A DNA stretch of 64,000 nt from Acidobacteriota bacterium (GTDB taxonomy: Bacteria; Acidobacteriota; Thermoanaerobaculia; Multivoradales; JAGPDF01), in the NCBI GenBank assembly GCA_014584695.1, contig JACTMI010000020.1, forward strand, positions 186,001 through 250,000, read 5' to 3'. Each line of letters opens with the position of its first letter. The stretch's first letter is position 1. Shown piece after piece: positions 23,076-42,107 of this stretch. The notes beneath the pieces are model-generated. The model was given only the letters and a program-made list of their open reading frames with translations, was not told where the DNA came from and did not search any database. Position numbers and translations under genes: made by a program.

Positions 23076-25439
23076 TCAGTCGAGAGCCAGCGCTCGCCGG
23101 TAGAGGGCGGCGAATCCCTTGGCCATGTCGCGGTGCGTGAAGCGCTCGAGCAGCCGCTTTCGGCCGGCTCGACCCATCTCCCGACGCGACCTGCGGTCGG
23201 AAGCGAGCTCGACGATCGCCTCCGCCAGCGCCATGGCGTCTCCGGGCGGCACCAAAAGGCCGGTCTCGCCGGCGGCGATGATGTCGCGAGGGCCGCCGGA
23301 GTCGCAACCGATGACGGGCTTGGCGAGATCCATCGCCTCGAGGAAGATCAAGCCGAAGGACTCGTAGTGCGAAGGCGCGACGAAGAGGTCGCAGGAGGCG
23401 TAGTCCCGCGCCAGCTCGGCGTCGCTGACGTGGCCGCGGAACTCGACCCGGCCGGCGAGCTCCGGGTGGCGGCGCCGGAACCAGGTCGGGTAGTCACAGC
23501 GCTCGCGCGCGAAGAAGCCGTCGTGGCGGCTGTTGTCGGCACCGGTCACGACGAAGCGCAGCCCCGGCACCTCGGCCGCCGCCCTCGGGATGGCGTCGAA
23601 CAGCTCGAGAATCCCCTTGCGTCCCTCCAGCCGGCCGACGAACAGCGCGGTGATCCCGTCACCGTCCCGACTCTCCGGCAGGCCCGCGACTTCCGCCTCC
23701 GGCCGGGGAGCGAGCCCGTAGGAGACGCGGCCGTGCAGGCGGGCCGCCAGGTCGATGCCGTAAACGTCGGCGAGCGAGCGCTCGGTCGCCTCCGAATTGG
23801 ACACCAGCAGCGTCGCGCGGCGCAGCAGGTCACCCTCGAGGTCGCCCAGGAGGCGGGTCTCGGCGGTCTCGGCGCCGTGCACGGCGGCGATCTGGCGCAT
23901 CGCCGTGACCGGCCGGACGGCGACCGGCAGCTCACCGGCGACGGCGGTGACGTAACCATCGAGGTTCCAAAGCGGCGTGTCGACCAACTGAACGGCGTGG
24001 TTGCGGATCAGCGAGCGCACGGCGGCGAAGGCCTCGTGGCTATGGTCCATCCAGGCCGCCAGGTCCGGATAGCCGGCCTCGGCGAAGGCGCGGTAGCGGC
24101 GCAGCGCGACCGGTCCGACCTCGTGGATCCAGGCGCCATCCTGCTCGTAGACGCGATGGCCAGTGCCCGCGGTGACGACGTGGACCTCGTGGCCGAGCTC
24201 GGCCAGACCGAGGGCGAGCGTCGCGGTGCTCCGCGCGACGCCGTGGGTGGCGCGCGGCGGGTAGTCGACCGAGAGCATCGCGAGTCGCAACGGCTCTTCG
24301 CGCAGGGGCAGTCCCCTCCTCTCGCAGGAGAGTACCGCGGGCGCCACGGCTGGCGCCCGCCGCCAGACGTCGCGCGGAAACGGGCGGAACCCGCCGCCGA
24401 GCTCCGGAATGCGGCCCGGAATCCGCCGCTCGCCGAACAGCCCTTGAATCAAGCCGTGGCGTCGGGCTCGGCGCAACATCCGCCGCGCCTTGGTGCGCAG
24501 TTCCCGTGGCAGCTCACCCCGCCGGGCGAGATCTTCGACCTGGGCGCGCAGCTGGCGCGAGTGGCGTAGCGCCGCCCGCAAGCTGCGCCGCCAGCCGACG
24601 GCGCCGGGGCCGTTCTTGAGCGTGAAGTAGATCTGCGAGCGCGACCACGAGTACCAGTTGAGGTCGTAGCGGTGGCGTCCGCGGTTGCCGGTGGTGGCGC
24701 CCAGGTGGTAGACGACGGCTTCGTCCAGCTGGCGCAACCCGAAGCCCGCGAGGCCCAGCCGAACGCCGATGTCGCCGTCGTCGTAGAGGTACTCGAAGCG
24801 CTCGTCGAAGCCGCCGATCGCCAGCAGCGCGGCCCTGCGGTAGCTCATGTTGGTGCCGTGGAAGCGGGGAAACCAGAACCGCGGCGGTGTCTGGGAGGGG
24901 GGCAACTCCCGGGTACCCCACCGCACGTCGTCCTGCTCGGCCAGCACCGAGAAGACGCCGCGCAAGAACTGGATCCGGTCCTCGCCCGGCCGCACTAGGT
25001 AGGTCCGCCCGCCGGCGCCCGAGATCGAGTCGTCGAGGTAGGCCACCGCCAGCTGCTCGAGCCAGGTGGTGGCCGGCACCGAGTCGTCGTCGATGAACGC
25101 CACGATCTCCCCGTCCGCGTGTGCCAGCCCCAGGTTGCGCGACACCGAAAGATTGAACTCCGGGCACGAAACCACCTTCACCCGATCCGGAAACTCCTCC
25201 GCCAACATCTCGAGCGTCCCATCCCGCGACGGCCCGACGACGGCGACGACCTCGAACCGCGGATGTGTCTGACGGTTGAGCGCGTGGAGGAGCGTGCGAA
25301 GCTCGAGCCGGCGGGAGTCGGTGTTGATGACGACGGAGATGGTCGGAGCGGTTGGCGGATCGAGGCCTCGATCCGCGGAGGGCTCCTGCGCACCCCCTGT
25401 TCCCGTGTCGACGCCGGCGGGAGGAGGGAGGGTCGTCAT
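23076..25439 (-). CDS. Bifunctional GT2-GT4 glycosyltransferase
   Basis: The product has 787 residues. I took the ATG at 25439 (MTTLPPPAGVD); an extension upstream would be unlike the family. Residues 30-290 are a GT2 domain: ISVVINTDSRRLELRTLLHA, VAFIDDDSVPATTWLE with the DDD metal site, FHGTNMSYRRAALLAIGGFD and YLYDDGDIGVRLGLAGF. A basic helical linker follows. Residues 390-787 are GT4: LAMLSVDYPPRATHGVARST, ALFVGRLEGRKGILELFDAI, and APSHYESFGLIFLEAMDLAK with the E-x7-E signature. One chain would carry out two transfer steps. It is the first gene of the minus-strand trio. Its 5' side lies at the edge of the lower-GC segment. Confidence 0.88.
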   Translation of the reverse strand: MTTLPPPAGVDTGTGGAQEPSADRGLDPPTAPTISVVINTDSRRLELRTLLHALNRQTHPRFEVVAVVGPSRDGTLEMLAEEFPDRVKVVSCPEFNLSVSRNLGLAHADGEIVAFIDDDSVPATTWLEQLAVAYLDDSISGAGGRTYLVRPGEDRIQFLRGVFSVLAEQDDVRWGTRELPPSQTPPRFWFPRFHGTNMSYRRAALLAIGGFDERFEYLYDDGDIGVRLGLAGFGLRQLDEAVVYHLGATTGNRGRHRYDLNWYSWSRSQIYFTLKNGPGAVGWRRSLRAALRHSRQLRAQVEDLARRGELPRELRTKARRMLRRARRHGLIQGLFGERRIPGRIPELGGGFRPFPRDVWRRAPAVAPAVLSCERRGLPLREEPLRLAMLSVDYPPRATHGVARSTATLALGLAELGHEVHVVTAGTGHRVYEQDGAWIHEVGPVALRRYRAFAEAGYPDLAAWMDHSHEAFAAVRSLIRNHAVQLVDTPLWNLDGYVTAVAGELPVAVRPVTAMRQIAAVHGAETAETRLLGDLEGDLLRRATLLVSNSEATERSLADVYGIDLAARLHGRVSYGLAPRPEAEVAGLPESRDGDGITALFVGRLEGRKGILELFDAIPRAAAEVPGLRFVVTGADNSRHDGFFARERCDYPTWFRRRHPELAGRVEFRGHVSDAELARDYASCDLFVAPSHYESFGLIFLEAMDLAKPVIGCDSGGPRDIIAAGETGLLVPPGDAMALAEAIVELASDRRSRREMGRAGRKRLLERFTHRDMAKGFAALYRRALALD

Positions 25440-25576
25440 TTCATCTCGACAGCATGCCTTCAGGGCAAGACTCGAAGCGCTCGTGAGTAGGACGCGTCTG
25501 TGGCTGCGGGCCCGAAGGAGCGGTCCAGGATACGAGGCGCTCCGCCCCAATTCGGGCGAGCTGCGTCCAGACGAAC

Positions 25577-25676: not shown

Positions 25677-26330
25677 TCAGAAGTTGCAGCTGGCGAACTG
25701 GCAGGTGCGCGTCGAGATGAAGTCGTCGAGGTCGAGGAAGCTACCATTCGACGCGACGCCGCCCGTGGAACCGAGGCCGCCTCCGAGGCGGATGTAATCG
25801 ATGTCGAAGTCGTTCGTATTCAGGTTCTCTGCCTTCTTCCGGAAATTGCCGTTCCGGTAGAGCCGAATGGTCGCGGTCGTGCCTTTGTGCCATTCCACAG
25901 TGAACTGATCGCCACCGTCACGCAGCGCCTCAGCGATGCGGGGGTAGAAGCCGCCGCCTGCAGCAGCAGAGCGCGCAGGAAGAATGTGGAAAGCCCAAAG
26001 TGTGGCCTGGCCATTCGGTCGGCGGTACAGGTTCAGGCGGAAGACGTTCGCCCCGCTGGTCTCCTCGAAGGCACGGAAGATCTGCAAAGTCGCCTCGGGC
26101 GCCATCACCATGCCATCGGCACGGATTCTGAACGTCGCATGATACTCGGCCTCGTTGGCGGGCGAGTTATCCTGAACGTAGGCGTTGGTGACGGTGCCGT
26201 CGAAATTGACCCGCATGCCGAAGTTGCCCTGCAGGGCAGCGGCAGCGGTCACGGTAATGCTCACGGCGGCGCTCACCGGCGCGGCAGCAAGCAGCAAGAC
26301 TACGAGAACAGCCAACCCTTTGAGCTTCAT
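25677..26330 (-). CDS. Small secreted protein of unknown function
   Basis: The product has 217 residues. The ATG at 26330 follows a strong Shine-Dalgarno sequence (GGGAGG, 9 bases upstream) and opens a signal peptide (MKLKGLAVLVVLLLAAAPVSA). The mature part looks all beta: alternating patterns such as FGMRVNFDGTVTNAYVQD, ATLQIFRAFEETSGANVFRL and TATIRLYRNGNFRKKAE, with a C-terminal Cys pair (TCQFASC). The shape suggests a jelly-roll or lectin-like sandwich, but I do not recognise a family. It stands alone, with a hairpin after it and the sulfatase-like pair divergent from it. Its codon use is less GC-biased than that of the genes to its left. Confidence 0.7.
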   Translation of the reverse strand: MKLKGLAVLVVLLLAAAPVSAAVSITVTAAAALQGNFGMRVNFDGTVTNAYVQDNSPANEAEYHATFRIRADGMVMAPEATLQIFRAFEETSGANVFRLNLYRRPNGQATLWAFHILPARSAAAGGGFYPRIAEALRDGGDQFTVEWHKGTTATIRLYRNGNFRKKAENLNTNDFDIDYIRLGGGLGSTGGVASNGSFLDLDDFISTRTCQFASCNF

Positions 26331-26495
26331 GCGAGATCCTCCCTTTGATACTGCAGAGTCGCAGACCGATAGAATGTTCCCATGCGGCCTATTTACGCCT
26401 TTCTTGCTCCTTCTAGGGCAGCATGCAGCTTTTCGGGCGGGGTGGCGCGACGCGGCGAAAGGCCGAGGAGGAGGGCGACAGGGCCAGGCAGAGGG

Positions 26496-27878
26496 ATGAG
26501 CGAACGACCGCGGGCTCTGCTGACGTGGCTGCTGATCGCCCTCGTCGCCGCGTCCTGCGAGCGCCAGGGTGCCGAAGATCGGCCTCAGCCGAACGTCTAT
26601 CTTCTCGTCGTCGACGCGCTTCGAGCCGACCATGTGAGCGCTCATGGCTACCGCCGCGACACCACACCTTGCCTCGATCGGCTGGCGGCCGAGGGAGTGC
26701 TGTTCGAGCGGGCTCGGAGTGCGTCGAACTACACTCGGAGCTCCGTTCCCTCGCTGTTCACAGGTTTCCAGCCCTCAGTTCACGGCGTTGTCGAGCCATC
26801 CGATCGACTTCACGACGGTTTCGAGACCCTAGCCGAGTACTTCTCGGCCGCCGGATATGCTACGGCAGCATGGGCTCCGAATCCCTCGTTGGAACGACGC
26901 CTGAACTTCGGCCAGGGATTCGAGCACTACGACGACCAGGTTCTTGATCCGGAGGCAGAGGAGGAATGGCTCCAGTTTGAGACTGTCCGGAGAATCAACA
27001 GCCGCGCGCTACGGTTCGCGGAGGAAGCGAATCGACGCCCACTGTTCCTTTACCTGCATTACCGCGACGTACATGGGCCCTACCTCCCTCCCCCCGAGTA
27101 CCGCAACCTGTTCTGGAACGAACGGGAGATAGGCCAGGTGGAAATGCGCGCGCTGACTCCGGCGGAGCTCGAAGTTATGCCGACCTACCTCCGTCTCGAG
27201 TCCGGCCCGCAAGTCCGGGAGTACTACGTCTCGCAGTACGACGCGGAGATTCGCTACACCGACGACGAGATCTGTGGTCTTCTCTCTGAACTCGAGCGGC
27301 GCGGCCTGCTTCAGAACTCCCTCATCGTTGTAACGTCTGACCATGGCGAGGCGTTTCTGGAGCACGGCAGGTGGAACCACGGCAATGAGCTGTTCGAGGA
27401 GGAGATTCGCGTACCGCTGGTACTCGCCGGATCTGTCCTGGGGGCGCGCGCTGGCGTCAGGCTGGCGACGCCCGCTCAAGGTGTGGACGTCATGCCGACG
27501 ATACTCGAACTGGCTGGCTTGAGAGTTCGTAGACAGTTGCAGGGGATCAGCCTTGTGCCGCTGCTCGAAGGTGGCACTCTCCCTGCTCGAACGGTCTTTG
27601 CGGAGGGCAAGAAGTCGATACGACTGGCTGCCATTTACGGAGAGTACAAGCTGCTCCGGAATGCCAGGACGGGAGCCTGGGCACTGTACGACCTTGCAGC
27701 GGACCCAGGAGAAATCGAGGACCTGTTCGAGGAATCTCACCCTCGGGCGCGGTATCTTGGGGGCGAGCTGGGGCGCTATCGTCGCCAGGCCGCAGAACTT
27801 GCCCGGAGCTTTCCGGTACGAAAGATCCCGTCCACTCCCAAGCTCGAGCAGGATCTGAAGGCACTGGGCTACCTGTGA
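26496..27878 (+). CDS. Sulfatase-superfamily lipoprotein A (Thr in the nucleophile position)
   Basis: The product has 460 residues from the ATG at 26496, which has GAGGG just upstream. The N-terminus is a likely lipoprotein signal (ALLTWLLIALVAASC). The alkaline phosphatase/sulfatase fold follows: metal-site VVDALRADHVS, nucleophile region YTRSSVPSLFTGFQPSVHGV with Thr80, LYLHYRDVHGPY, and metal-site VTSDHGEAFLEHG. The formylglycine motif C/S-x-P-x-R of true sulfatases is missing; Thr80 lines up with the Thr nucleophile of phosphodiesterase-type relatives. The chain ends DLKALGYL. The stop overlaps the next gene as GTGA. It is probably an envelope phosphodiesterase or phospho-group transferase; sulfatase activity is less likely. 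Confidence 0.82.
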   Translation: MSERPRALLTWLLIALVAASCERQGAEDRPQPNVYLLVVDALRADHVSAHGYRRDTTPCLDRLAAEGVLFERARSASNYTRSSVPSLFTGFQPSVHGVVEPSDRLHDGFETLAEYFSAAGYATAAWAPNPSLERRLNFGQGFEHYDDQVLDPEAEEEWLQFETVRRINSRALRFAEEANRRPLFLYLHYRDVHGPYLPPPEYRNLFWNEREIGQVEMRALTPAELEVMPTYLRLESGPQVREYYVSQYDAEIRYTDDEICGLLSELERRGLLQNSLIVVTSDHGEAFLEHGRWNHGNELFEEEIRVPLVLAGSVLGARAGVRLATPAQGVDVMPTILELAGLRVRRQLQGISLVPLLEGGTLPARTVFAEGKKSIRLAAIYGEYKLLRNARTGAWALYDLAADPGEIEDLFEESHPRARYLGGELGRYRRQAAELARSFPVRKIPSTPKLEQDLKALGYL

Positions 27879-29386
27879 AGAGACAGGAACGGAGCGCACC
27901 TCCAGGCCGACAGCACCTGGGACGCATCCCGAAGGAGGTCGAGGTCGCCGGGCCAAGCGATCGGCGATGCCGTTGGAGACATAGAAGCGCCACCGATCGG
28001 TCGGCGCTGGTGGTCTTCCTGGTGGCAGCTGCCCTGTCGACCATGACGTGCTTGCGGCCAAGCCCTTTGAGGCCGGACATCGTGTGGATTGTCGTTGACA
28101 CCCTGCGAGCGGACCATCTGGAATGGTATGGCTACCACCGAAGCACGTCACCGTCCCTCGCCGGGATGATTTCCGATGGGGCACTGTTCGAGCGGGCCTT
28201 CTCCCCGCAGCCCGAGACCACTCCGGCGATCGCCTCGATGTTCACGGGTCTCTACCCACCGAAGCATGGTGTGACCGCGTTATACCTGAAGCTCCACGAG
28301 GACAACATAACCCTGGCTGAGCGATTGGCGACGGTTGGCTACGAGACAGCGGCGTTCGTCTCGAGCTTCGTGATGATCCGCGATTTCTGCGGCCTCGACC
28401 AGGGATTCTCGATCTACGACGACTTCGTCCAGGAACGTGAGGCATTCAGGGATAACTTCGAGAGACGCGCTGAGGGCACGATCGACCTGGCGACGAAATG
28501 GGTTGAAGGCCGCGACGGCGCCAAGCCCATGTTCCTCTTCGTCCACTTGATCGACCCGCACGGCCCCTACACTCCACCAGGAGACTGGGCGGCACGCTTC
28601 CATTCCGATGAGACGCTTCCGGTTCGAGGAACGATTCCCGCCTATCAGAGGATTCCGGGCGAGACGAATCTAAACCGGTACCGCGACCTTTACGACGGCG
28701 AGGTTGCCTACGCAATGCATGAAGTCGGGCGCTTGCTGGAGCAGCTGAGGGCGCGGCGGCTGCTCGACGCGGCCATGGTCGTGATCACTTCCGACCACGG
28801 CGAGAGCCTCGGCGAGAGGGGCCTCTACTTCCGTCACGGCGACGATGTCTTTCAAGAGAACGTCCATGTCCCATTGCTCGTGAAGCTCCCATCTCGGCTC
28901 GGAGCGCGTCGCGGGATCCTTCACTCAAGTCCGGTCAGTCACGTCGACCTGTTGCCGACTGTGCTTGACCTGCTGCAGCTCGATGTCGGAGAACAGCTCG
29001 ATGGGCAAAGCCTGCTCCCGTCCTTGCTCGGCCGAGGGCACGATCGAGGTCCGGTGTCGATGTGGGCGCGTCCACGAGGCGAAGTCAGCTTTGCCGAGGC
29101 CACCGGGAACGCGAAGCTGATGCTTCGTACTTACGCCTCCGGGCAGCGCCAGTTCGCCAGGTACGAGCTCGAGGGCGACGCCGCGGAGGCCGAACCGCTG
29201 GCACTCTCGACCGAAGAGGCAGCGCGTCTGGCCCAACGGCTGGATGCGTGGCTGGCGAACGAGCCGAGATTTCGGGTCGAGGGGAACATCCTTCACGAAT
29301 CTAAACGACAGGAATTCGTACGAGGCCGTCTTCGCCAGCAGGAGGACGAAGACCTCGATCGGTTGCGCAGTCTTGGCTACTTGTGA
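27875..29386 (+). CDS. Sulfatase-superfamily lipoprotein B (Thr in the nucleophile position)
   Basis: The product has 503 residues from the GTG in the GTGA overlap. About 43 charged residues precede a hydrophobic stretch with a possible lipobox (ALVVFLVAAALSTMTC), so it is a membrane-anchored or lipidated envelope protein. Fold landmarks are IVVDTLRADHLEWYGY, ETTPAIASMFTGLYPPKHGV with Thr115 as the predicted nucleophile, FVHLIDPHGPYTPP, and ITSDHGESLGERG. The C/S-x-P-x-R motif is absent. The chain ends LDRLRSLGYL, like its three neighbours. It must be cotranscribed with protein A. Function is inferred only from fold and context. Confidence 0.82.
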   Translation: MKRQERSAPPGRQHLGRIPKEVEVAGPSDRRCRWRHRSATDRSALVVFLVAAALSTMTCLRPSPLRPDIVWIVVDTLRADHLEWYGYHRSTSPSLAGMISDGALFERAFSPQPETTPAIASMFTGLYPPKHGVTALYLKLHEDNITLAERLATVGYETAAFVSSFVMIRDFCGLDQGFSIYDDFVQEREAFRDNFERRAEGTIDLATKWVEGRDGAKPMFLFVHLIDPHGPYTPPGDWAARFHSDETLPVRGTIPAYQRIPGETNLNRYRDLYDGEVAYAMHEVGRLLEQLRARRLLDAAMVVITSDHGESLGERGLYFRHGDDVFQENVHVPLLVKLPSRLGARRGILHSSPVSHVDLLPTVLDLLQLDVGEQLDGQSLLPSLLGRGHDRGPVSMWARPRGEVSFAEATGNAKLMLRTYASGQRQFARYELEGDAAEAEPLALSTEEAARLAQRLDAWLANEPRFRVEGNILHESKRQEFVRGRLRQQEDEDLDRLRSLGYL

Positions 29387-29497
29387 GCGGCACGGCTGCG
29401 TCCACGTGGGGTCGCGTCGTCCGAAGTGCACCATGGTGCGGTGGCGGCGACAGACGCTGCGTTGGGGCAAGGCCGGGCCGGCTCCGCTTGACCAAAC

Positions 29498-29514
29498 GCC
29501 CGGGGTGCCCGGGC
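29498..29514 (-). terminator. Hairpin between the convergent sulfatase-like genes B and C
   Basis: The stem GCCCGGG / CCCGGGC has a 3-base loop and starts 5 bases past the stop of gene C. Read on the minus strand it is followed by GTTTGGTC, a weak T-rich tail. A second perfect palindrome, GCACCATGGTGC, lies at 29428-29439. Together they probably end transcripts from both sides. Confidence 0.42.
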
Positions 29515-29518
29515 CAGG

Positions 29519-30916
29519 CTATCGGAGATAGCCGAGGGCTCGGAGCCGAGCGAGATCCTCCGGGGACAGAGCAACGCCGGTGTTCGTGTCGATTCCGGCC
29601 TCGATCTGCTCCAAGCGGGCGAGGTCGACCTCGGCGAGCCTGCGAGAACGGGCGACCATTCTGTGCTTTAGCGGCGAGTTCTCCTCCCAGAGATTGACGA
29701 TCTCCCTGGGGTCATCCGCCAGGTTAAAGAATAGTTTCTCGTCCGGGAAGACCTTCACGGTCCCTGCGCGGAGCACCGAATACATGTGAACGTCACGGCG
29801 ACCGGTAACTCCACTTTCTAGCGAGGGCTCGAGATTTTGTCCCTGTGCCAGCGGAAGCGGCGGCAGGCCCAAGAGTGAAAGCAGTGTTGGAGCGACGTCA
29901 ACCATGGCTGCGAGCCCACGAACCCGGACGCTTCTGCCCCCGAGGCCCGGGACGCGCATCATCCATGGAACGCGCGCCAGCTCCTCGAAGCCCCCTTGAT
30001 CGTGAAGCACGCGGCCGTGCTCCCCGAATTCTTCTCCGTGGTCCGAGAGCACGACGAGGAGAGTGCGCTCCAGGAGTCCCAGGCGTGCTAGTTCATCAGC
30101 GAGATGACCGATCTGCTGATCGACGTAGAACACGCACCCGTCGTAGAGATCGGAAGCGAGTGCGACGTGCTCCGCCGCTGTGAGCTCGGTTACACGGACC
30201 CCGCGGCGATCCGCCGTCGCGTTGAGTTCTCTCAGAAGCTTGGTGCCGCACAGTCCGCTGTCGCAGCCGTCGTAGTCCTTCGGGCGCTCCTCGACGAACG
30301 TCCACTCGGACTCGCCAGGGCAGTCGTAGGGCAGACTCTCACCCAGCCCCGTAGAGTGCACATCGTAGGTGTGAAGGAAGAGAAAGAAGCGCTGCCTCGC
30401 GTGGTCCCTAATCCACTCGATGGCGCGGGGGAGAGTATCGCGTAGGCGGTGGCCGCGGTCATCATAGGAATCGAAGCCTCTTCCGAAGCCATATCTCGGA
30501 TTCATCCAACCAGGGTCGACGAAGGCGGCGGTCGAAAAGCCAGATCCAGCGAGTACTTCCGGCAGCGTCATGATCTGCGGCGACAGCGACCGATCGCGAT
30601 GCGGTTCGACGCCGTGCGCAGCCGGGTGGTGAGAGGTGAAGAGCGACATATGGGAGGGCAAGGTTCCGCCACCGCTGTAGTAGAAATCCTCGAACACGAC
30701 TCCGTCCCGGGCGATGGCCTCGAGAGTCGGTGTCGTCTGCCGGTGATAGCCGTAGAGCGATGTTCGGTCTGCGCGAAGCGTGTCGATGGAAATCAGAACG
30801 AGATTCCAGCCCGGGCCAACGGAGCGCGCGAAGGAATCGGACGTCTGGCGTCCGACGAGAAACCACGACACGAGAAGCGCCGTTACTGAAGCGACGAGGA
30901 GGCGTAGTGGCTTCAT
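29519..30916 (-). CDS. Sulfatase-superfamily membrane protein C (Thr in the nucleophile position)
   Basis: The product has 465 residues from the ATG at 30916 (MKPLRLLVASVTALLVSWFL); a start at 30940 would add 8 residues before the hydrophobic segment. That segment is a signal anchor. Fold landmarks are LISIDTLRADRTSLYGY, GTLPSHMSLFTSHHPAAHGV with Thr85 as the predicted nucleophile, FLFLHTYDVHSTG, and VLSDHGEEFGEHG. No C/S-x-P-x-R is present. Four cysteines near 200-225 (YDCPG, DGCDSGLCG) could make disulfides in the periplasm. The chain ends LARLRALGYLR. It is the last gene of a minus-strand series that may begin at 41533. It lies 47 bases after gene D. Confidence 0.83.
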   Translation of the reverse strand: MKPLRLLVASVTALLVSWFLVGRQTSDSFARSVGPGWNLVLISIDTLRADRTSLYGYHRQTTPTLEAIARDGVVFEDFYYSGGGTLPSHMSLFTSHHPAAHGVEPHRDRSLSPQIMTLPEVLAGSGFSTAAFVDPGWMNPRYGFGRGFDSYDDRGHRLRDTLPRAIEWIRDHARQRFFLFLHTYDVHSTGLGESLPYDCPGESEWTFVEERPKDYDGCDSGLCGTKLLRELNATADRRGVRVTELTAAEHVALASDLYDGCVFYVDQQIGHLADELARLGLLERTLLVVLSDHGEEFGEHGRVLHDQGGFEELARVPWMMRVPGLGGRSVRVRGLAAMVDVAPTLLSLLGLPPLPLAQGQNLEPSLESGVTGRRDVHMYSVLRAGTVKVFPDEKLFFNLADDPREIVNLWEENSPLKHRMVARSRRLAEVDLARLEQIEAGIDTNTGVALSPEDLARLRALGYLR

Positions 30917-30963
30917 GGCATCCCGACTACTCGTGCGCACTTCCCGTCGTCATCGGGTCATCG

Positions 30964-33363
30964 TCAAAGGTATCCGAGCGCCCGGAGAGACTCGATCTGG
31001 TCGTCGAGAAGCTCGATCCGGCTGGACCGATCCTCGCTTACCGCGAGCCTGCGCTCGAACCTCTCGAGCGAGGCGCGGCAGACTCTCGCGCCCTGAGAAT
31101 CCGCCTCGAGAACCACCTCTTCCGAGTGGTCCTGCAACGTGCGAAAGAAGTGCCAGCGTGTGGCCTCTGGGGTCTCCTTGCTCTTGACGAAAGGCTGAAT
31201 GTGAACGCAGCGCACTCCTTCGAGTAGCAGGCTACGATGCAGCCGTGACTGCTCCTCCGGACCCTCGCGGTGAGTGACGACCTCCGCGAGCTTGGCTGTT
31301 CGAAGGGGTCGCTCACTTCGCAGGTCTGGCAAGAATGAAAGGCCGTCCTTGAAGTCTCCAGCGGCAGATTCCAGACCTAGGTACTCGATGAGCGTGGGCG
31401 CTACGTCGGTCAGCGAGACGGCGCGTTCGACCGTACGCCCGCGCCAGCGCCCGTGCGGGAACTTGATGATCAGCGGCACGCGAGTCACTTCGGCGAAGAG
31501 GTTACGGCCGTGACCGTATCCGCCGTGCTCGCCAAACTCCTCGCCATGGTCGGAAAGAAGGAGAATCATGGCCTCATCGTAGAGGCCCAGGTGCCGCAGC
31601 AGATCAAGGAACTGACCGAAGGCGCGATCAGCAAAAGTAACCTCGGACTGGTAGAGGTGTTTTGCGAAGTCGAGCTCTCGAGGCGTGATGCCGGCGCGCA
31701 GATCTACCAGGGTCTTGATATAGAGGGGAGCGGCGACTCGTGGCTCGGGCTGCACCCTTCCGAAGCGCTCGAAGTCTTCTCGTCGCGGTGCGTATGGAGC
31801 ATGCGGTTCGACCGTGTGCAAGTAGCCGAAGATCGGCCGGGCGCCAGTCCAGGAGCCAATGGCCCAGTGCCTGAACAACGTGAGGAGATCCGAGGTCCTG
31901 AGTTCTGGGCCGTTGATCTGCTCGCTCACGAAGAACTCGCCGAAGCCGCGATCGATGCCGTAGGTAGGACCTGCAATCCAGCTCTGGCTGATGGCAACAG
32001 TGTCGTAGCCAGCTGATCGGAAGGTCTCCGCCACCGTGCGAGGACCGGCCGCAGGGAGCTCCTGATCGAGCTTCCAGACGCCGTGGTTGGAGGGATGGGT
32101 GCCCGTCATCATGGAGATGACTGACGGGAGCGTCCAGGAGCTTGGTGCCCATGCATTGCCGAAGATCACCGAGTCGGCGGCGAACCGGCGAATCGAGGGA
32201 GTAGTCGCGAGACCGCGAAAGGTACCGAGAATGGCATCGGCGCGCAGTGTGTCGACGAGATACACGAAGACATGAGCCGGTTGGGATCGATTCCGGTCGG
32301 CAAGAGGTGCTGTGCGAATTCTCCCGAGAGCGGGTGCAGTGAGATCGAAGCCGCAGCCCGAGCCCGTCGCTAGCCCCACATCGACTCGCAGCTCCGCGGG
32401 ATTCGGACTGTCGTTGGCAGCGTCGAAGATAAGTCGACTCTGATCCAGCCTAGCCCTGACGGTCTGCGCGTGGCGCGCCGTTCCCACAACGCTACTGGTG
32501 GCCTTGCAGCTCCCACCTCCACCTGCTACCAACAACTCGACTTCGTTGCGCGAGTGTGGCGGAAGGGGTACTCCGATCTCCCGCACGGCGTTGTTGGCGG
32601 CCCGCGGTGAAGCACCAGGCTCGTCGAGATCCTCGCCGTGCAACGAGGCGAGGGTGGCAAGAGGGGCGCCGGCGGACGTGGGAAGAATCGCCACGGCCGA
32701 GCATATGGCGCGACGCTGTCGCGCGGGTCGGCTTCTTCCCGTGTTTGACTCGAGGCTGCCCGATGTCTGGAATGCCAGCGTCGCCGCGATCAACGAGCCG
32801 GCGAGGTGATGATCGCTGACCTGGAAGCGGAGGTCATTCCAACCAGCTCCGACTTCACGCTGCAGAAGTGGACCATCATTGATTCGCAATGTCGCGCCAA
32901 TGATCGACGCCCCCGATTCCTGCGGTAAGGGTCTGCAGCGAAGATAAAGCTCATGATTGGGAAGCGAGGGTGCAGCGTAGTAGAGAACCGACTCGTCGCC
33001 CAGAGCCGTGGTGACAAACCGATCGATGCCCGCAGCGGTCGGGTCCTCTTCAGTGCGTGACCAGCCGGCGCCAGTGAGAACACTGGCGACTCGTCGATCG
33101 AAACTACTCCACGGCAGCGAAGGGTTCGGGCGGACGGGAGAATACTCGCTGAGTGAGGGGGATGCGAGCGGGATGCTAGAGACAGCTTCGCGGCAACCGA
33201 GTAGCACAACCGCACTCATCAGCACGAGGTGGAGTGAAAGCGCGGCCCCGAACCCGGGCTTTCTGGCGCTTCGCCTCGGTGACGGCGACGCCCACCGCGC
33301 CCTCGCCGAGACGTTGCACTCTGGCTCTCGCAGGTTCTGGGACTCGACTTGAAGCTCAGGCAT
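30964..33363 (-). CDS. Sulfatase-superfamily lipoprotein D with large extra N-terminal domain
   Basis: The product has 799 residues from the ATG at 33363, which follows GAGAGCGG; in-frame starts further up lack a ribosome site. After about 40 residues there is a lipobox-like stretch (LHLVLMSAVVLLGC). Residues 60-370 are an extra beta-rich region not found in A-C; it holds FVTTALGDESVLYYAAPSLP and LVAGGGGSCKATSS and may bind a glycan. The catalytic fold starts near 375 (FVYLVDTLRADAILG), with WTLPSVISMMTGTHPSNHGV giving Thr411 as the predicted nucleophile, and LLSDHGEEFGEHGGYGHG. No formylglycine motif is present. The chain ends ESLRALGYL. Function is inferred as for A-C. Confidence 0.82.
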   Translation of the reverse strand: MPELQVESQNLREPECNVSARARWASPSPRRSARKPGFGAALSLHLVLMSAVVLLGCREAVSSIPLASPSLSEYSPVRPNPSLPWSSFDRRVASVLTGAGWSRTEEDPTAAGIDRFVTTALGDESVLYYAAPSLPNHELYLRCRPLPQESGASIIGATLRINDGPLLQREVGAGWNDLRFQVSDHHLAGSLIAATLAFQTSGSLESNTGRSRPARQRRAICSAVAILPTSAGAPLATLASLHGEDLDEPGASPRAANNAVREIGVPLPPHSRNEVELLVAGGGGSCKATSSVVGTARHAQTVRARLDQSRLIFDAANDSPNPAELRVDVGLATGSGCGFDLTAPALGRIRTAPLADRNRSQPAHVFVYLVDTLRADAILGTFRGLATTPSIRRFAADSVIFGNAWAPSSWTLPSVISMMTGTHPSNHGVWKLDQELPAAGPRTVAETFRSAGYDTVAISQSWIAGPTYGIDRGFGEFFVSEQINGPELRTSDLLTLFRHWAIGSWTGARPIFGYLHTVEPHAPYAPRREDFERFGRVQPEPRVAAPLYIKTLVDLRAGITPRELDFAKHLYQSEVTFADRAFGQFLDLLRHLGLYDEAMILLLSDHGEEFGEHGGYGHGRNLFAEVTRVPLIIKFPHGRWRGRTVERAVSLTDVAPTLIEYLGLESAAGDFKDGLSFLPDLRSERPLRTAKLAEVVTHREGPEEQSRLHRSLLLEGVRCVHIQPFVKSKETPEATRWHFFRTLQDHSEEVVLEADSQGARVCRASLERFERRLAVSEDRSSRIELLDDQIESLRALGYL

Positions 33364-33492
33364 CCGCTCTCTACTCATACTTGTTATTCGCGAGACATGC
33401 TGGCCCGGCGCATCGGAAGCCAGGCGGCCCCCTGCAATCAGACGTGCCAGGATACCGCGAACGCCACAACGGGCAACCGTCGCATCCAAGAA

Positions 33493-34989
33493 TCAGCAGC
33501 GCCGAATCAGCGTCAGCCGCCAGCCGTTCTCCTTCGGTGGACTCTGCCAGACGGCCTCCGCCGTAGAGGAGGCGGTCGGCGATACGTCGTCCAGGTGCCG
33601 AGCCCAAAGCTCGAGTCGGCAAGGAGCGAGTGGTTGAGGCTGTGAACGCGAACTCCGAAGCAGCTTGTGCGCCGCGGCTTGGACCAAGAAGTACTCGGTC
33701 GCATCCAATTGGCCCGACCTGCCGAACCTCAGCTCGGGATGGATCCAGGTCAGTGGCTCCCCGCGGCGCGCAAGGTCCAGCAAGACGGCTTCTGTGGAGT
33801 GCAGAATCGGGGGGCGCCGCAACTCATTGAGTGTTCCGAGGAGTGGACCGAGCGCCGCGACGGCTGCCAGCACCGTTGCGGCGAGGCGCCAGTGCTTGGA
33901 GCCGAGCAATCGAGGAAGTTCGAAAATCGCCCAGGCGGCTAGCCAGCAGAGGCCGGGATAGGCGGCAAGCGCGTACCAGGGGAGCTTCGATACGGGGACA
34001 GAGATGGCTGCGACCCAGGCTACTGAGATCAACCAGAGCGAAAGCCGAAGGCGATAGCAGGATCGGGCCCGCAGTGCGGGCACGAATAGAGCCAGAGACG
34101 CCGCCAGTAAGAGCAGTCCGGCGAGTCCGAAGTCGGCGGAGATCGTCTCGATGTAGAAGGTGGGTCCCTGGAGGTGCGCTGCGTTCAACCCCTCCGTTAA
34201 ACGTCGAAGGACGCCCCGGCCGACCACTCTCGCCCAGACGTTCGGAATGCCAGCGAGGTGTAGAGAACAGATCCAGGCGAAGTACGAGATCCATGGTGTT
34301 ACGAGGATCAGGGTCGCGCCGAAGGCGAGCCGCGGGCGATGGGGAGAGGCTCGGCGAGATCGATGGCGCCCGAGTATCAACAGCGCGGGCACGGCAACGA
34401 ACAAGAAGGCCGGTCCGACGGCGCCTTTGGCCCAGGGGCTTGCTGCCGCTGCGATTAGCGCGAAGGAAAGCGAGGGCACGCGGCCATCCTTCAGCCAGCT
34501 TTGAGTCGTCAGCATTGCGCTGAGAAGGAGGAACAGGAGCAGAGAGTCCCCAGTGCCACTTGCGAGGCCATGGCGACCATGGACGCCAAGTGCGACCGGT
34601 AGGGAGGCCAGCAGAAGACTGCTGGCGCCACCAGCCAGTGGCCCCCATTGGATCCGTGCGAAGCGAAAGACGAGCAAGAGCGAGCCAATTCCAAAAAGCG
34701 CGGCAGGGAGACGTGCAACGGAAGTGGATGGGCCAAGCAATTGCATCGACAACATCTGGAGCCAGAAGAGGAGTGGAGGCTTCTGAATGTACGGCTCCCC
34801 ATTGACGATCAATGGGTACACACGCCCTGCAGCAGAGGATTCCAGCGCGACTCCGGCGTAGAAAGCTTCATCGCCCTCAAGGCTCCCTCGTGTCATGGCG
34901 GCGGCCACGAGTGCCACCGACCCGGCGAGAAGAGCGAGTCCCACGCTCGCATGGGGCGCGAGATTGCGGACTCTCGAAAGCCGCGACAT
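33493..34989 (-). CDS. ArnT/GT39-type integral membrane glycosyltransferase
   Basis: The product has 498 residues from the ATG at 34989. About ten hydrophobic segments run through the first 400 residues. The first periplasmic loop has GDEAFYAGVALE, carrying the acidic pair of lipid-linked-sugar transferases, and then QKPPLLFWLQMLS, the K-P-P-L motif of ArnT-like enzymes. Family members move a sugar from an undecaprenyl- or dolichyl-phosphate carrier to lipid A, protein or another glycan on the outer face of the inner membrane. The C-terminal 90 residues are soluble and end with tryptophan-rich sequence. It lies 7 bases after a second GT39-like gene and 129 bases before sulfatase-like D. Confidence 0.84.
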   Translation of the reverse strand: MSRLSRVRNLAPHASVGLALLAGSVALVAAAMTRGSLEGDEAFYAGVALESSAAGRVYPLIVNGEPYIQKPPLLFWLQMLSMQLLGPSTSVARLPAALFGIGSLLLVFRFARIQWGPLAGGASSLLLASLPVALGVHGRHGLASGTGDSLLLFLLLSAMLTTQSWLKDGRVPSLSFALIAAAASPWAKGAVGPAFLFVAVPALLILGRHRSRRASPHRPRLAFGATLILVTPWISYFAWICSLHLAGIPNVWARVVGRGVLRRLTEGLNAAHLQGPTFYIETISADFGLAGLLLLAASLALFVPALRARSCYRLRLSLWLISVAWVAAISVPVSKLPWYALAAYPGLCWLAAWAIFELPRLLGSKHWRLAATVLAAVAALGPLLGTLNELRRPPILHSTEAVLLDLARRGEPLTWIHPELRFGRSGQLDATEYFLVQAAAHKLLRSSRSQPQPLAPCRLELWARHLDDVSPTASSTAEAVWQSPPKENGWRLTLIRRC

Positions 34990-34996
34990 GAGCAGA

Positions 34997-36484
34997 TCAG
35001 CCCCGCCGGGAATGCTCTGCAAGAGTTGCCTGCCGCTCTGTCGCCTCTCGCGGGAGTGCGAAGAAGCGACGGTGGGTGGTCGCGATGCTGAGAATCACCG
35101 TCACTGGAACCCAGTCGAACACCGTGGCGAAGCGGAGGTTGTCCGCCAGCGCCTCAGCGTGGAGCAGCACAGTTCCGGCATACCCGGCGAGTAACCAGCC
35201 CGTGAGGGAAGGACAGGCAAGATCGGGATCGCCTCGGCGGTGCAGAAGCCACAAGACCGTCGCCAGCAGCAATAGGGCCAAGATCCCGGGCCGAACCCAG
35301 GTGGTGTAGAAATGAATTGCAAGCTGGAGCACAGCGATGACCTTCGGGTCCGCTCGGACATTGCTCGGGGTGAGGAAGCGGCTCGCAACCCTCCTCGAGT
35401 GGACCAGGCGGTCCTCCGGCTCGAGCAGGTGCGATAGCCACATCACGGCGTCGCCTTCTCCGCGCGCCGGCCAAGCGCCGAGAAAGGTCGCGGCGGTGCG
35501 AATCTGAGCACGCCGGAGTCGACCTGCCTGCTCTCCTCGGGCGCGAGCCAGAGCATCACTGGCTCTGCGCTCGCCTTCGGCGGAACCGAGAGCTACCAGC
35601 TCCCAAAAAACGACGTGCGCCGGATCGCGTGCGAACCGCTCGGGATGTGAGACGGCTCCCGGCAGGAGACCTGCGGGGTCGATCAGCCCCGCCTCGATCG
35701 CGTAGATCAGACGCATCTTCGCTGGCGAGGCGAAGACCGTGGCGGAATCGAGGTATCGAAGGTTGCGGAGAATCCATGGGGTCAGCAACGCTGCCAGGCC
35801 TACTACGAAGAGCATCGCTGCTGTCAACCACCTGAGCGACGAGGCTGAGCTTCGGAGGCGCCGTAGAAGAGCTGTGAGCACAGCGAGAAGCACCGAGGCG
35901 AGGAGAACGAGGCCATTGAGCCTGGTCAGGATGACGCCCCCGGCCAACAATCCGACGAGAAGGCCCATAGCCGCCGAGTCTGGAGAGTGAAGCCAGCGCG
36001 AGGCGATCCACACGACGATGAGGAGGCCCATGAGTGCGAACGTCTCGCTCATGATGGCGTGCTCGTTCGTCAGGTAGAGCGGATTGAGACCGACGAAAAG
36101 ACCGAGCACCGCAGCAGCGAGGGTGGAGCGGGTTAGGCCCATGGCGAAGATGTAGGCCACTGCAGTGGAGATCAGGCCGAGAACTGCCTGGGCGACCAGC
36201 AGTGCGGTCGCGCCGCCGCCGCCGACCAGCTTGGTAGTACAGAGGAATGCAGGGTAGCCGGGCAGGCGAAGCACGCCGAGTTGCGGCTCAGCGAACGAGG
36301 CGGAGCGCAGCATCCAGTCGGCGATCCGCAGGTACGACCGGGAGTCGAGCGTCCAGAGTTCCGGGAGGGAGACAAGCAGGCCGAGCCGCACGGCAAGAGA
36401 CAAGCCGAGCACGGCAGCCAGAACTCCCCAGGGCGAACGTACCCTCGATCGCTCTCGGTTGTGGCCTGTTTGGGCAGAGAGCAC
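34997..36484 (-). CDS. GT39-like integral membrane glycosyltransferase
   Basis: The product has 495 residues from a GTG. It is strongly hydrophobic, with about ten predicted membrane segments. The first loop contains ELWTLDSRSYLRIADWML and then LRLPGYPAFLCTTKL, the R-x-PGYP-type motif that marks PMT-like (GT39) proteins. NPLYLTNEHAIMSETFALM is another family block. About 90 soluble residues lie between later segments (SHPERFARDPAHVVFWELVA). It should use a polyprenyl-phosphate sugar donor on the periplasmic side. Genes on both sides are 7 and 14 bases away, so it is in one transcript with them. Acceptor unknown. Confidence 0.82.
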   Translation of the reverse strand: MLSAQTGHNRERSRVRSPWGVLAAVLGLSLAVRLGLLVSLPELWTLDSRSYLRIADWMLRSASFAEPQLGVLRLPGYPAFLCTTKLVGGGGATALLVAQAVLGLISTAVAYIFAMGLTRSTLAAAVLGLFVGLNPLYLTNEHAIMSETFALMGLLIVVWIASRWLHSPDSAAMGLLVGLLAGGVILTRLNGLVLLASVLLAVLTALLRRLRSSASSLRWLTAAMLFVVGLAALLTPWILRNLRYLDSATVFASPAKMRLIYAIEAGLIDPAGLLPGAVSHPERFARDPAHVVFWELVALGSAEGERRASDALARARGEQAGRLRRAQIRTAATFLGAWPARGEGDAVMWLSHLLEPEDRLVHSRRVASRFLTPSNVRADPKVIAVLQLAIHFYTTWVRPGILALLLLATVLWLLHRRGDPDLACPSLTGWLLAGYAGTVLLHAEALADNLRFATVFDWVPVTVILSIATTHRRFFALPREATERQATLAEHSRRG

Positions 36485-36498
36485 GGCGAGCTGGGCGA

Positions 36499-38061
36499 CT
36501 AGTGAGATGCCTCGTGCCCCTGGGAGCCCTGTCGTGTCGACTCGTCAGTAGGAGCAAGTGGTCTGCTCTCGAGGGATGCAGTACGGCTTTTCCAATCGCG
36601 CCAGCGAACTGACTGGCGCAGCGCGCCCTGCGCGATGAGCCTTGCGTGAAGGGCTTCGCTCCTTGAGACGGCTGCATCGGCCCGACTAGAGGAGAGTTCA
36701 AGCGACAGGATCTCGAGCAAGGCGCGGTCGACCTCGCGCTGGTGCTGCCAGATTGGGCTCAGGAGCCGCAGCATCGCGCGGCGCCAACGGCTTTCTTGCC
36801 GAATCAGGCGCGCGGGTCCTTGCTCCACGCCTATCGCGAGCCGCTCGAGCTTGGTGCGGATTCCTTCTTCGAGGCAACGAGGACTTCGCGCAAGGGTAGC
36901 GGAAGTCGACTCTGACGGCTCTAGATTAGGCTGGAGAGTTAGCCCGCGCGCCATCCTGATTGCTGCGAGCCGCGCTGCAACCTGATGAGAACGAGCCTCC
37001 GGAGTGTGGCCTTCGAGAATGGCTGCCCGAGCACGTCGACCGAGGGCTGCAGCGACGTCGGCATGGCTGAGGACGTGGCGAAGCGCCGAAGCGGCTGCAG
37101 CAACGTCGGGCTCGGCCCAGGTGCCCCCATAGGGCCCGGCGCCTTGCTGTATGGCCACACGCGTCCAGGGAACCAGCAGCGCGGTCTGATCGTCCATGAA
37201 GTCGAGATTGCCGGAGTAGCCGGTCGCGACCACTGGCTTGCCCGCGAGCATCGCCTCGGCGAGCATCAAGCCGAAGCCTTCAGCACGGTGCAACGAAAGG
37301 TAGACATCGCAAGCCGAGATGAGTCCGGCTTGTTGTCCCCTTGTCAGGTACCCGTCGAGCAGAGTGATGTCGGACCTGCCCTCGACCGCAGCGGCAAGGC
37401 GAGAGCCCAGTTCGGGATGCCGCTCGCCGTTGACGCTCTTGATCAGGAGCCTCGCTGGCCCTGGTTCGGGAAAGGCGGAGCGAAAGGCGGCAATTGCCCC
37501 CAGTGGGTTCTTCCGGTCGAACACGCTGTCGTAGTCGAATGCGACGAGGATGCGGGGCGAGGGGGGGAGCGACCAGGACGCAGGTAGCGGCTCCGGAACC
37601 GGTGGGTCGACTGCCGGCGGCATGGCGAGGACGGGGCGGTCGGGGACTTTGCGAGCGATGGCCGCGGCGGAGTGGCGACTGTTGGCCCAGATCTCGTCGA
37701 CCAGCGCGGCGCTCGCGGCCATCTCATCGGGGAACTCCTCGACCTCCCAGGCCCAGTAGCCGATCGAGTACCGGCCTTCGCGAATGTCGGGATGCTCGGA
37801 GAAGAGCCTTGGCGTCTCGTCTGCATTGACGAAGAGCAGGTTGAGGTCGTAGAGAAGGAATGGCGAGTCCTCGTGGTCGAGCGCGTGGGCTTGGCGGCTA
37901 AGCGTGCGCATGAAAGTGCGGCGGGCATAGGGGATTCCAGCCGCATCCAGGCTCGCAGCCAAGGTGCGCGCGTGCTCGCCGACACCACTCTCGGCGCGGA
38001 AGTAACCGACCAAGTTTGCTCCGTCGAGGTCGGGCCGGAGTACGAAGAGGGAGCTGTTCAC
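36499..38061 (-). CDS. GT4-family glycosyltransferase with coiled-coil C-terminal tail
   Basis: The product has 520 residues from a GTG. The N-terminal half shows NLVGYFRAESGVGEHARTLA, a known opening for rhamnosyl/mannosyl-type GT4 enzymes, then YWAWEVEEFPDEMA. The donor half carries ILVAFDYDSVFDRKNPLGA, LLDGYLTRGQQAGLISACDV and HRAEGFGLMLAEAMLAGKPV, with the E-x7-E pair. After about 390 the chain becomes a basic helical tail with coiled-coil spacing (EVDRALLEILSLELSSSRAD). This tail recalls the stand-alone 114-residue protein at 22703. Base composition begins to rise again toward its 5' end. Confidence 0.85.
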   Translation of the reverse strand: MNSSLFVLRPDLDGANLVGYFRAESGVGEHARTLAASLDAAGIPYARRTFMRTLSRQAHALDHEDSPFLLYDLNLLFVNADETPRLFSEHPDIREGRYSIGYWAWEVEEFPDEMAASAALVDEIWANSRHSAAAIARKVPDRPVLAMPPAVDPPVPEPLPASWSLPPSPRILVAFDYDSVFDRKNPLGAIAAFRSAFPEPGPARLLIKSVNGERHPELGSRLAAAVEGRSDITLLDGYLTRGQQAGLISACDVYLSLHRAEGFGLMLAEAMLAGKPVVATGYSGNLDFMDDQTALLVPWTRVAIQQGAGPYGGTWAEPDVAAAASALRHVLSHADVAAALGRRARAAILEGHTPEARSHQVAARLAAIRMARGLTLQPNLEPSESTSATLARSPRCLEEGIRTKLERLAIGVEQGPARLIRQESRWRRAMLRLLSPIWQHQREVDRALLEILSLELSSSRADAAVSRSEALHARLIAQGALRQSVRWRDWKSRTASLESRPLAPTDESTRQGSQGHEASH

Positions 38062-38093: not shown

Positions 38094-39422
38094 CTAGCTC
38101 TCCGTGCCGGGTGATGCCTGAGCATAGATCTCGAGGTGGGCAGCTGTTGCCGTCTTGGGAAGCGAGATCCGAGCCGCACCAGTTGGCGCATCGACCGCTC
38201 CCGAGAGAACCTGCTCAAGGCTCCAGTCGAGCAGATTGGTTGCGATTCGCGCCGCCCCCGCCACCCTCTCCCCCAGCGCCCCCATCCCGCTCGTCAGCAC
38301 CGGGACGCCGGCGGCCAGGCAGGCGTCGAGGGCGAGGCAGTGGGTTTCGGGGAAGCGGGACGGCAGGACCGCCAGGTCGACGCTGTGCTCGACCAGGCGG
38401 CGGGGGAGGGTGGGCGCGCGATAGTAGCCGTGGACTCGGAGGCCGGCGCGGCGGGCGTCGAGCAGCAGGCCGGGGTCGCCGCCGCCGAGGACTGAGAAAC
38501 GGACATTCGGGCTCCGGGCCGCCGCCGAGCGTGCGGCGGCGATGAAATCGGGCAGCCCTTTGCGCACCGAGGCTTGGCCGACGAAAGCGACGTGGCGCGG
38601 GGGGCTGGCGACCGTGCGCGGGTGGCAGGGCAGGAAAGTGAGCGCCGGCGGCAGGATCTCCTCGCGCGCGGGCCGAGCCTCGGGGAAGAGCTCGGCGTGG
38701 CGGCGGCGCGCGAAGTCCGACGGGTGGATGAGCGCGCGGCATGCCGACAGCAGCTCGGCGGCGGCACGGCGGCGCGGTGCCTGCGGCGGCGGCGCGACCG
38801 CACCGGCGGCGGTTCGGCAGGCGTGGCAGCGCGCCTCGTCCCGGCTGCCGCCGCAGTCTCGCGCGTGCGGTGCCTCGAGCAGGTCGACGCGCGTGCAGAA
38901 GAGCGCGAAGTCGTGGGTCGACAGCACCATCGGCGCGCAGCGGGCGAGCGCGGTCAGGCGTTCGAGGTCGAGCCCGCTCGCCTGTTCGAGATGCCAGAGC
39001 GGCGGCCGGCCGAGCCGGTGCGCGAGCGCGGCGAGGATGGCCGCCAGGGCCTCGGCGCGGTCGGCGTCCGTCACCAGCCGCTCGCCCGCGGCGGGAGCGC
39101 GCAGCGGCGCCGCGCCTGGCGAGTCGACGCGCAGCCACCAGCGCCCGTCGCGCAGCTCGGCCAGCGCCGTGGCGACTTCGCCTCGGGCGGCGGCGAGGCG
39201 CGCGGCCAGGGCCTGTTGGACGCCGCCGCGCCGGGCCTCGAGCGGCGCCGGCAGGACGTTGAGGACGACCGCGGCCGCCGCCCGGTCCAGGACCTCCTCC
39301 ACCCCCCGCAGCCGGTGGCGCGCCAACTCGCGGGCCTCCTCTCGCCGCTCGTGCCAGCGCTCGATCAGACCGCGCGCCCCTTCGGCGCGGGCGACGGCGA
39401 GCGCGACGCCGAGGCGGCTCAT
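38094..39422 (-). CDS. GT4-family glycosyltransferase with cysteine cluster
   Basis: The product has 442 residues. The ATG at 39422 overlaps the upstream stop as ATGA. The first 110 residues are an Arg/Ala-rich helical region of unclear role. The GT-B part shows LWHLEQASGLDLERLTALAR, then VLSTHDFALFCTRVDLLEA with four cysteines spaced C-x13-C-x8-C-x2-C. That arrangement is seen in a subgroup of GT4 enzymes and may hold a metal. The donor half has HVAFVGQASVRKGLPDFIA, FSVLGGGDPGLLLDA and LPSRFPETHCLALDACLAAG. In the last motif the usual second Glu of E-x7-E is replaced by Asp. It is coupled to the bifunctional transferase upstream. Confidence 0.82.
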   Translation of the reverse strand: MSRLGVALAVARAEGARGLIERWHERREEARELARHRLRGVEEVLDRAAAAVVLNVLPAPLEARRGGVQQALAARLAAARGEVATALAELRDGRWWLRVDSPGAAPLRAPAAGERLVTDADRAEALAAILAALAHRLGRPPLWHLEQASGLDLERLTALARCAPMVLSTHDFALFCTRVDLLEAPHARDCGGSRDEARCHACRTAAGAVAPPPQAPRRRAAAELLSACRALIHPSDFARRRHAELFPEARPAREEILPPALTFLPCHPRTVASPPRHVAFVGQASVRKGLPDFIAAARSAAARSPNVRFSVLGGGDPGLLLDARRAGLRVHGYYRAPTLPRRLVEHSVDLAVLPSRFPETHCLALDACLAAGVPVLTSGMGALGERVAGAARIATNLLDWSLEQVLSGAVDAPTGAARISLPKTATAAHLEIYAQASPGTES

Positions 39423-41748: not shown

Positions 41749-41816
41749 TTCCGTCGCCGGGAAGTCCGGACCAACCCCTATCCGAGTCGCTGCCAAGACT
41801 CCAAGGAGGACGCAAC

Positions 41817-42107
41817 GTGAACATCCGTCCGCTGCACGACCGCGTGGTGGTCAAGCGCATCGAGACCCAGGAGCAGATCCGGGGCGGCATCATCATCCCC
41901 GACACCGCCAAGGAAAAGCCGCAGGAGGCCGAGGTGGTCGCGGTCGGCCCGGGCAAGGTCAACGACGAGGGCAAGCGCTCGCCGATGGACGTCAAGGCCG
42001 GCGATCGCATCCTGATCGGCAAGTACTCCGGCTCCGAGATCAAGCTCGAGGACCAGGAGTACGTGATCGTGCGCGAGGACGAGATCCTCGCCGTGATCGA
42101 GAAGTGA
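41817..42107 (+). CDS. groES: Co-chaperonin GroES
   Basis: The product has 96 residues. The start is the GTG at 41817, because a perfect AAGGAGG lies 7 bases upstream and the protein then begins [15 protein letters not shown], as in all family members. The mobile loop appears as [20 protein letters not shown] and the core ends [11 protein letters not shown]...[16 protein letters not shown]. Seven subunits cap the GroEL ring and close the folding chamber. The gene is under the promoter and CIRCE site immediately upstream and is followed after 77 bases by groEL. Confidence 0.97.

Follow-up and report, generated by a model that had tools for sequence, protein, structure and literature searches.

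Four adjacent sulfatase-like genes with threonine at the nucleophile position in an Acidobacteriota genome

A 64,000-nucleotide stretch of the genome of an Acidobacteriota bacterium (the window; contig JACTMI010000020.1, positions 186,001 to 250,000) carries four adjacent genes, herein S1 to S4, whose products resemble sulfatases and have threonine in the position of the catalytic nucleophile (Table 1). All four match the Pfam sulfatase family PF00884, with E values from 1.6e-47 to 8e-32 and bit scores of 162.7, 154.7, 138 and 111.2 for S1 to S4, respectively. The nucleotide pyrophosphatase (NPP) family PF01663 also exceeds its gathering score in each protein (53.7, 41.3, 44.6 and 34.8 bits), though it is weaker than PF00884 and not the best family.

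Table 1. Coordinates of S1 to S4, their diagnostic residues and the linked glycosyltransferase (GT) genes within the window (ORF, open reading frame; GC3, GC content at third codon positions).
Feature	Position	Strand	Details
S1, Thr-type sulfatase-like protein, predicted exported	26496..27878	+	460 aa; lipobox-like LVAASC; Thr80
S1 Thr80 codon (nucleophile position)	26733..26735	+	
S1 C-terminal motif LKALGYL	27855..27875	+	final 7 residues
S2, Thr-type sulfatase-like protein	27875..29386	+	503 aa; GTG start; Thr115
S2 Thr115 codon (nucleophile position)	28217..28219	+	
S2 C-terminal motif LRSLGYL	29363..29383	+	
S3, Thr-type sulfatase-like protein	29519..30940	-	473 aa; hydrophobic N-terminal segment; Thr93 (Thr85 from Met9)
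S3 codon, nucleophile-position Thr	30662..30664	-	
S3 C-terminal motif LRALGYL	29525..29545	-	then one residue (Arg)
S4, Thr-type sulfatase-like protein, extra N-terminal region	30964..33489	-	ORF 841 aa; lipobox-like VLLGC
S4 codon, nucleophile-position Thr	32131..32133	-	453 in ORF; Thr411 from ATG at 33363
S4 C-terminal motif LRALGYL	30967..30987	-	
GT-C membrane glycosyltransferase, directly upstream of S4	33493..35022	-	PF13231 PMT_2 (Pfam)
GT-C membrane glycosyltransferase	34997..36484	-	PF02366 PMT (Pfam)
GT4-type glycosyltransferase, last gene of low-GC3 block	36499..38061	-	Pfam, GC3

Nucleophile, motifs and fold

The formylglycine motif C/S-x-P-x-R is absent from residues 1-200 of S1-S3 and from the S4 nucleophile block. 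None of the four proteins satisfies PROSITE PS00523 or PS00149, the two formylglycine-sulfatase signatures, and the G-[YF]-x-T stretch of the second is not followed by G-K. These patterns as coded are strict and also miss all six of the non-Thr relatives, so the aligned residue is the evidence that counts. Each protein has an 11-residue block (TRSSVPSLFTG, TTPAIASMFTG, TLPSHMSLFTS and TLPSVISMMTG in S1 to S4) directly followed by P-x-x-HGV, and in the alignment its threonine coincides with the Ser/Cys nucleophile of sulfatases of known structure. The complete T-x-P-x-H block is confined to S3. In addition, D-[AT]-L-R-A-D and SDHGE are intact in all four, and the sulfatase lysine after SDHG is replaced by histidine. 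The D/E-x-H motif and this histidine are candidates only for ligands of the second metal, as in the Asp, His, His site of NPPs. The initial annotation had described the missing C/S-x-P-x-R, the Thr-to-TG/TS block with P-x-x-HGV and the retained metal sites, and all of these were recovered, as were its residue numbers Thr80, Thr115, Thr85 and Thr411 (S3 counted from Met9, S4 from 33363). Judged by their sequences, S1-S4 lack the hallmarks of formylglycine sulfatases.

The same residues are conserved well beyond the window. A 35-member profile recovered 156 distinct relatives from the collected loci; the collection used a narrower alignment than the 35-row one, and the sample is biased toward SDHGE[ES][FL] members. 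Since 150 of the 156 relatives have threonine in the same column, the nucleophile Thr is not a chance occurrence. The Asp-His of SDHG is kept in 153, and histidine stands for the lysine of formylglycine sulfatases in 154. Named relatives come from Acidobacteriota, Myxococcota, Planctomycetota, Elusimicrobiota, Omnitrophota, Krumholzibacteriota, Hydrogenedentota and Patescibacteria-type genomes.

Nor are S1-S4 special in their own genome, where they are one part of a genome-wide pattern. The 4.35 Mb assembly (97.8% complete) contains 15 PF00884 matches, 14 of them with threonine: 12 of the window type (S1-S4 included), one with a TIRAIEATTSG block and one NPP-type. The remaining match has serine, in an SDYAQTSILAS block, and none of the 15 contains C/S-x-P-x-R. 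At E 0.001, this 97.8% complete genome gave no match to the formylglycine-generating enzyme (FGE, PF03781) or to the anaerobic maturase (anSME, TIGR03942). Furthermore, relatives of S3 (E 1e-20 or better) occurred in all 40 genomes searched, namely the source genome, three congeners and further members of the same family and order, at 1 to 26 per genome (median 11). Genomes of this group have roughly ten Thr-type genes each.

The comparison of the family profile with EptA placed the threonine on the EptA block GTATAVS, followed by YDNTLVYVD and SDHGESLGENGIYLHG; the Thr block scores 8.3 bits only, and its register is weakly supported. The histidine after SDHGE aligns with the LHG motif of EptA. 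Because the sulfatase hallmarks are missing, neither FGE nor anSME was detected, threonine occupies the nucleophile column and this histidine matches that of EptA, "sulfatase" is a poor label for S1-S4, as the initial annotation had argued. A 2016 survey found threonine in 30 of 59 PF00884 seed proteins; formylglycine formation from Thr has never been demonstrated, and the PF00884 profile has introduced false annotations whose sulfatase label is unjustified (PMC5066984). Because that survey already reports Thr in the PF00884 seed, the central claim is known in general form: Thr-type look-alikes were known, and S1-S4 are new members. Recognizing them matters, as a sulfatase annotation would predict that sulfated glycans are used, although none need be present.

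AlphaFold2 models were made for S3 and S4, and the fold of S1 and S2 is assigned by sequence. The S3 model (predicted local distance difference test, pLDDT, 87.8) has the fold of SulfAtlas S1 sulfatases, with one helix preceding the catalytic domain. Its best matches are 6hr5 (Z 39.1, root-mean-square deviation, rmsd, 2.1, 330 residues aligned) and SpAS2, 4upl (Z 38.6, rmsd 3.9, 381 aligned), and across SulfAtlas S1 sulfatases and phosphonate monoester hydrolases (PMH) Z lies at 33-39 over about 330-380 residues. The S4 catalytic domain adopts the same fold (6hr5: Z 38.5, rmsd 2.7, 355 aligned) and also matches YejM/PbgA (Z 34-35). Structure prediction had been put forward in the initial annotation as a check; the models recovered a superfamily fold, and one closer to SulfAtlas S1 sulfatases and PMH than to NPP or EptA. 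Judging from the alignments, the threonine in S1-S4 presumably sits on the metal.

S1-S4 are predicted to be exported, lipoprotein-like or membrane-anchored proteins, and a crude scan detected a lipobox-like or hydrophobic N-terminal segment in 107 of 150 Thr-type relatives. The true start of S4 is probably 33363 or 33219. Its N-terminal region (32290-33363) comprises about 300 residues or more, modelled by AlphaFold2 at low confidence with some predicted strands, and no homologs of it were found among the family loci collected.

A conserved C-terminal tail

Each of the four proteins ends in, or one residue after, an L-x-x-L-G-Y motif, which is invariant in the 35-member alignment and as conserved there as the catalytic residues. 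The ends of that alignment were cut at the motif on collection, and a fairer measure comes from the complete Thr-type proteins: 125 of 146 have the motif, 98 of these with it no more than three residues from the C-terminus. As a control from the same loci, an LxxLGY end was seen in 132 of 205 family ORFs but in only 2 of the 3023 remaining ORFs; these two exceptions look like other members of the alkaline phosphatase superfamily. The motif also occurs in 11 of 30 PF01663 loci, at the very end in five and with about 200-235 residues after it in six, and in no canonical NPP among these 30. In longer proteins of the source genome it is followed by a linker and then by what appear by eye to be tetratricopeptide repeat (TPR)-like repeats.

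In the S3 and S4 models LxxLGY forms a short helix (pLDDT block means 90 and 83) behind a poorly predicted linker (64 and 60), and in most structure-match rows it lies beyond the part that matches solved sulfatases. No paper describing an LGYL tail, or TPR proteins of Acidobacteria with a sulfatase domain, was found in a search that most subscription journals fell outside, and the conserved tail is apparently new here and undescribed. The helix would be an extra element beyond the fold that these proteins share with sulfatases, and it probably docks on either the catalytic domain or a partner; docking in cis is the simpler reading and docking on TPR partners the more novel one. More speculatively, LxxLGY[LVI] could serve exported enzymes of the alkaline phosphatase superfamily as a portable C-terminal module. 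It would then be a short helix, common to two catalytic branches (Thr-type PF00884 and part of PF01663), that binds the enzyme or a TPR partner and is located either at the extreme C-terminus or immediately ahead of a fused repeat domain. If true, such a module would point to a widespread and so far undescribed system of enzyme plus TPR protein in Acidobacteriota, Myxococcota and Planctomycetota. The tail offers a concrete and testable way into a large family that lacks a known function.

Gene neighbourhood and family tree

S1 and S2, on the plus strand with the S2 GTG start overlapping the S1 end by 4 bases, converge on closely spaced minus-strand genes in the order GT4, two GT-C, S4, S3. The GT4 gene lies 14 bases from the first GT-C gene, the two GT-C genes overlap, and 23 bases separate the S4 ORF from S3; the gap before S4 is at most 129 bases, or about 270 if it starts at 33219. 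In two congeners the PMT_2 homolog is the single match in the genome and lies within a few kb of Thr-type genes. Because such neighbourhoods (5 kb each side of 11 and 14 Thr-type matches) cover at most about 3-4% of each genome, this two-of-two linkage is unlikely by chance, and it favours a surface-glycan role for this locus. Similar Thr-type arrays stand beside GT4-GT2 fusion proteins in two relatives from another family of the order. A dominant neighbour family was sought across about 95 loci and none was found, on crude gene calls with no background rate measured.

The genes from 25677 to 38061 have a GC3 of 0.69-0.77, compared with 0.87-0.96 outside. For the second GT-C gene, 58 other genomes yielded a single weak relative (27% identity). 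Joint acquisition of the whole block is probable. At its edge, 25677-26348 encodes an apparently secreted protein (start MKLKGLAVLVVLLLAAAPVSA) inside an ORF (25677-26645) that matches neither Pfam nor NCBIfam. More glycosyltransferases flank the block at 23076-25550 and 38094-41533 (a GT2/GT4 fusion, a GT4 and a GT2/GT4 fusion), with a groES-like gene beyond them at about 41814-42107. Elsewhere in the window, ARAGORN called a tRNA at 6087-6176, its type undetermined and its anticodon four bases long (tgga); the call is likely spurious.

A family tree had been part of the initial annotation's plan. By maximum likelihood, S1-S4 did not cluster with one another: S3 paired with a protein of a different family in the order (support 99) and S2 with a myxococcal protein (support 93). 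Many forks lacked resolution, and with 57 of the 153 inner branches open, Thr and Cys types did not resolve as two clean clades. Recent tandem duplication is ruled out by the 31-37% identity to S1 and the different tree positions. A four-gene unit conserved within the genus was likewise rejected, S3 having no close ortholog in three congeners; its nearest homolog, 45% identical, belongs to another family of the order. Since S1-S4 fall in different sub-branches, the proposal that the four paralogs form one dedicated set is doubtful.

Proposed function and comparison with known systems

Threonine is the nucleophile in NPP, EptA/MCR and LtaS. We consider it somewhat probable (roughly 0.6) that S1-S4 are members of a large Thr-nucleophile branch with a SulfAtlas S1-like fold, phosphodiester chemistry and head groups of surface glycans or lipids as targets. 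Phosphodiester chemistry is the best-supported reading because of the Thr column, the kept motifs and the lack of a detectable maturase, together with general knowledge of the superfamily. In the proposed mechanism, the Thr hydroxyl would attack a phosphodiester (a phosphomonoester being less likely), a phospho-Thr intermediate would form on a divalent metal, and water or an acceptor hydroxyl would then take up the phospho group, as in EptA/MCR. Because GT-C and GT4 genes are linked, the likeliest targets would be head groups such as phosphoethanolamine, phosphoglycerol or similar on a cell-surface glycan or lipid. The initial annotation had likewise proposed phosphodiesterases or phosphotransferases acting on such a substrate; the phospho chemistry holds as the best reading and the PMT_2 linkage favours a glycan at this locus.

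Several observations weigh against this proposal. NCBIfam models of phosphoethanolamine transferases score far below cut-off (NF028537, at most 49 bits vs 500), and the overall sequence is nearer to sulfatases and PMH than to phosphotransferases. The multi-helix N-terminal membrane domain of EptA is missing, S3 having one helix and S1, S2 and S4 one short hydrophobic or lipobox-like segment. GT2 neighbours were seen in 6 of 91 loci of one batch and did not rank with the leading families of the second; with no general partner over about 95 loci, the glycan link is therefore local, not family-wide. The missing membrane domain is equally what plain periplasmic or outer-surface hydrolases would show, and S1-S4 could be phosphodiesterases or phosphatases that scavenge phosphate or break down phosphorylated polymers and have no part in building or decorating glycans. 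This explanation, a serious competitor though the less probable one, also draws on the nearest folds being hydrolases, including PMH/phosphodiesterases, and on the lineage-wide expansion into many divergent copies; the same-strand packing with two GT-C enzymes and the PMT_2 linkage repeated in congeners speak against it.

Two further readings carry little weight. Given that SulfAtlas S1 sulfatases are nearest to them among proteins of known structure, in sequence and in fold, S1-S4 might act on sulfate esters through unmodified Thr, or move sulfate groups. This is improbable: all four lack Cys/Ser, the CxPxR arginine, the G-K motif and the lysine after SDHG, no maturase was detected in the genome, and formylglycine has never been shown to arise from Thr (PMC5066984). 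The match of the S4 catalytic domain to YejM/PbgA (Z 34-35) would fit pseudoenzymes or metal-binding sensors that kept the fold and lost catalysis; near-invariance of nucleophile, metal motifs and active-site histidines in 156 relatives is unexpected for dead enzymes, and this reading is the least probable of all.

With the formylglycine sulfatases (SulfAtlas S1, PF00884; choline sulfatase, S1_25 module 6hr5), S1-S4 share the whole catalytic fold including the C-terminal subdomain, the D-x-x-R, SDHG and HG motifs and the PF00884 match. They differ in having Thr for Cys/Ser and His for Lys after SDHG, in lacking the CxPxR Arg and G-K, in a genome without a detectable maturase and in the extra LxxLGY C-terminus. 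A rule built on Thr nucleophile, His for Lys after SDHG and LxxLGY end sorts Thr-type proteins from sulfatases at once. The phosphonate monoester hydrolases/phosphodiesterases (S1_0, PMH) and SpAS1/SpAS2 resemble them in fold (Z 33-39) and sequence (family-profile E 1e-63 to 1e-54), PMH being a phosphoester-active branch of the same fold; the nucleophile of PMH is formylglycine, whereas the Thr type has no known route to it. EptA/MCR share the Thr nucleophile column and YDxxxxYVD and SDHGE...HG blocks that align with the family profile, but S1-S4 have no multi-helix membrane domain and carry an extra C-terminal subdomain. NPPs (PF01663) share the Thr nucleophile, the T-x-P-x-H block in S3 and a PF01663 score above gathering in all four, but PF00884 scores far higher and canonical NPPs lack LxxLGY. 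Altogether, by sequence and fold S1-S4 are closer to SulfAtlas S1 sulfatases and PMH than to NPP or EptA.

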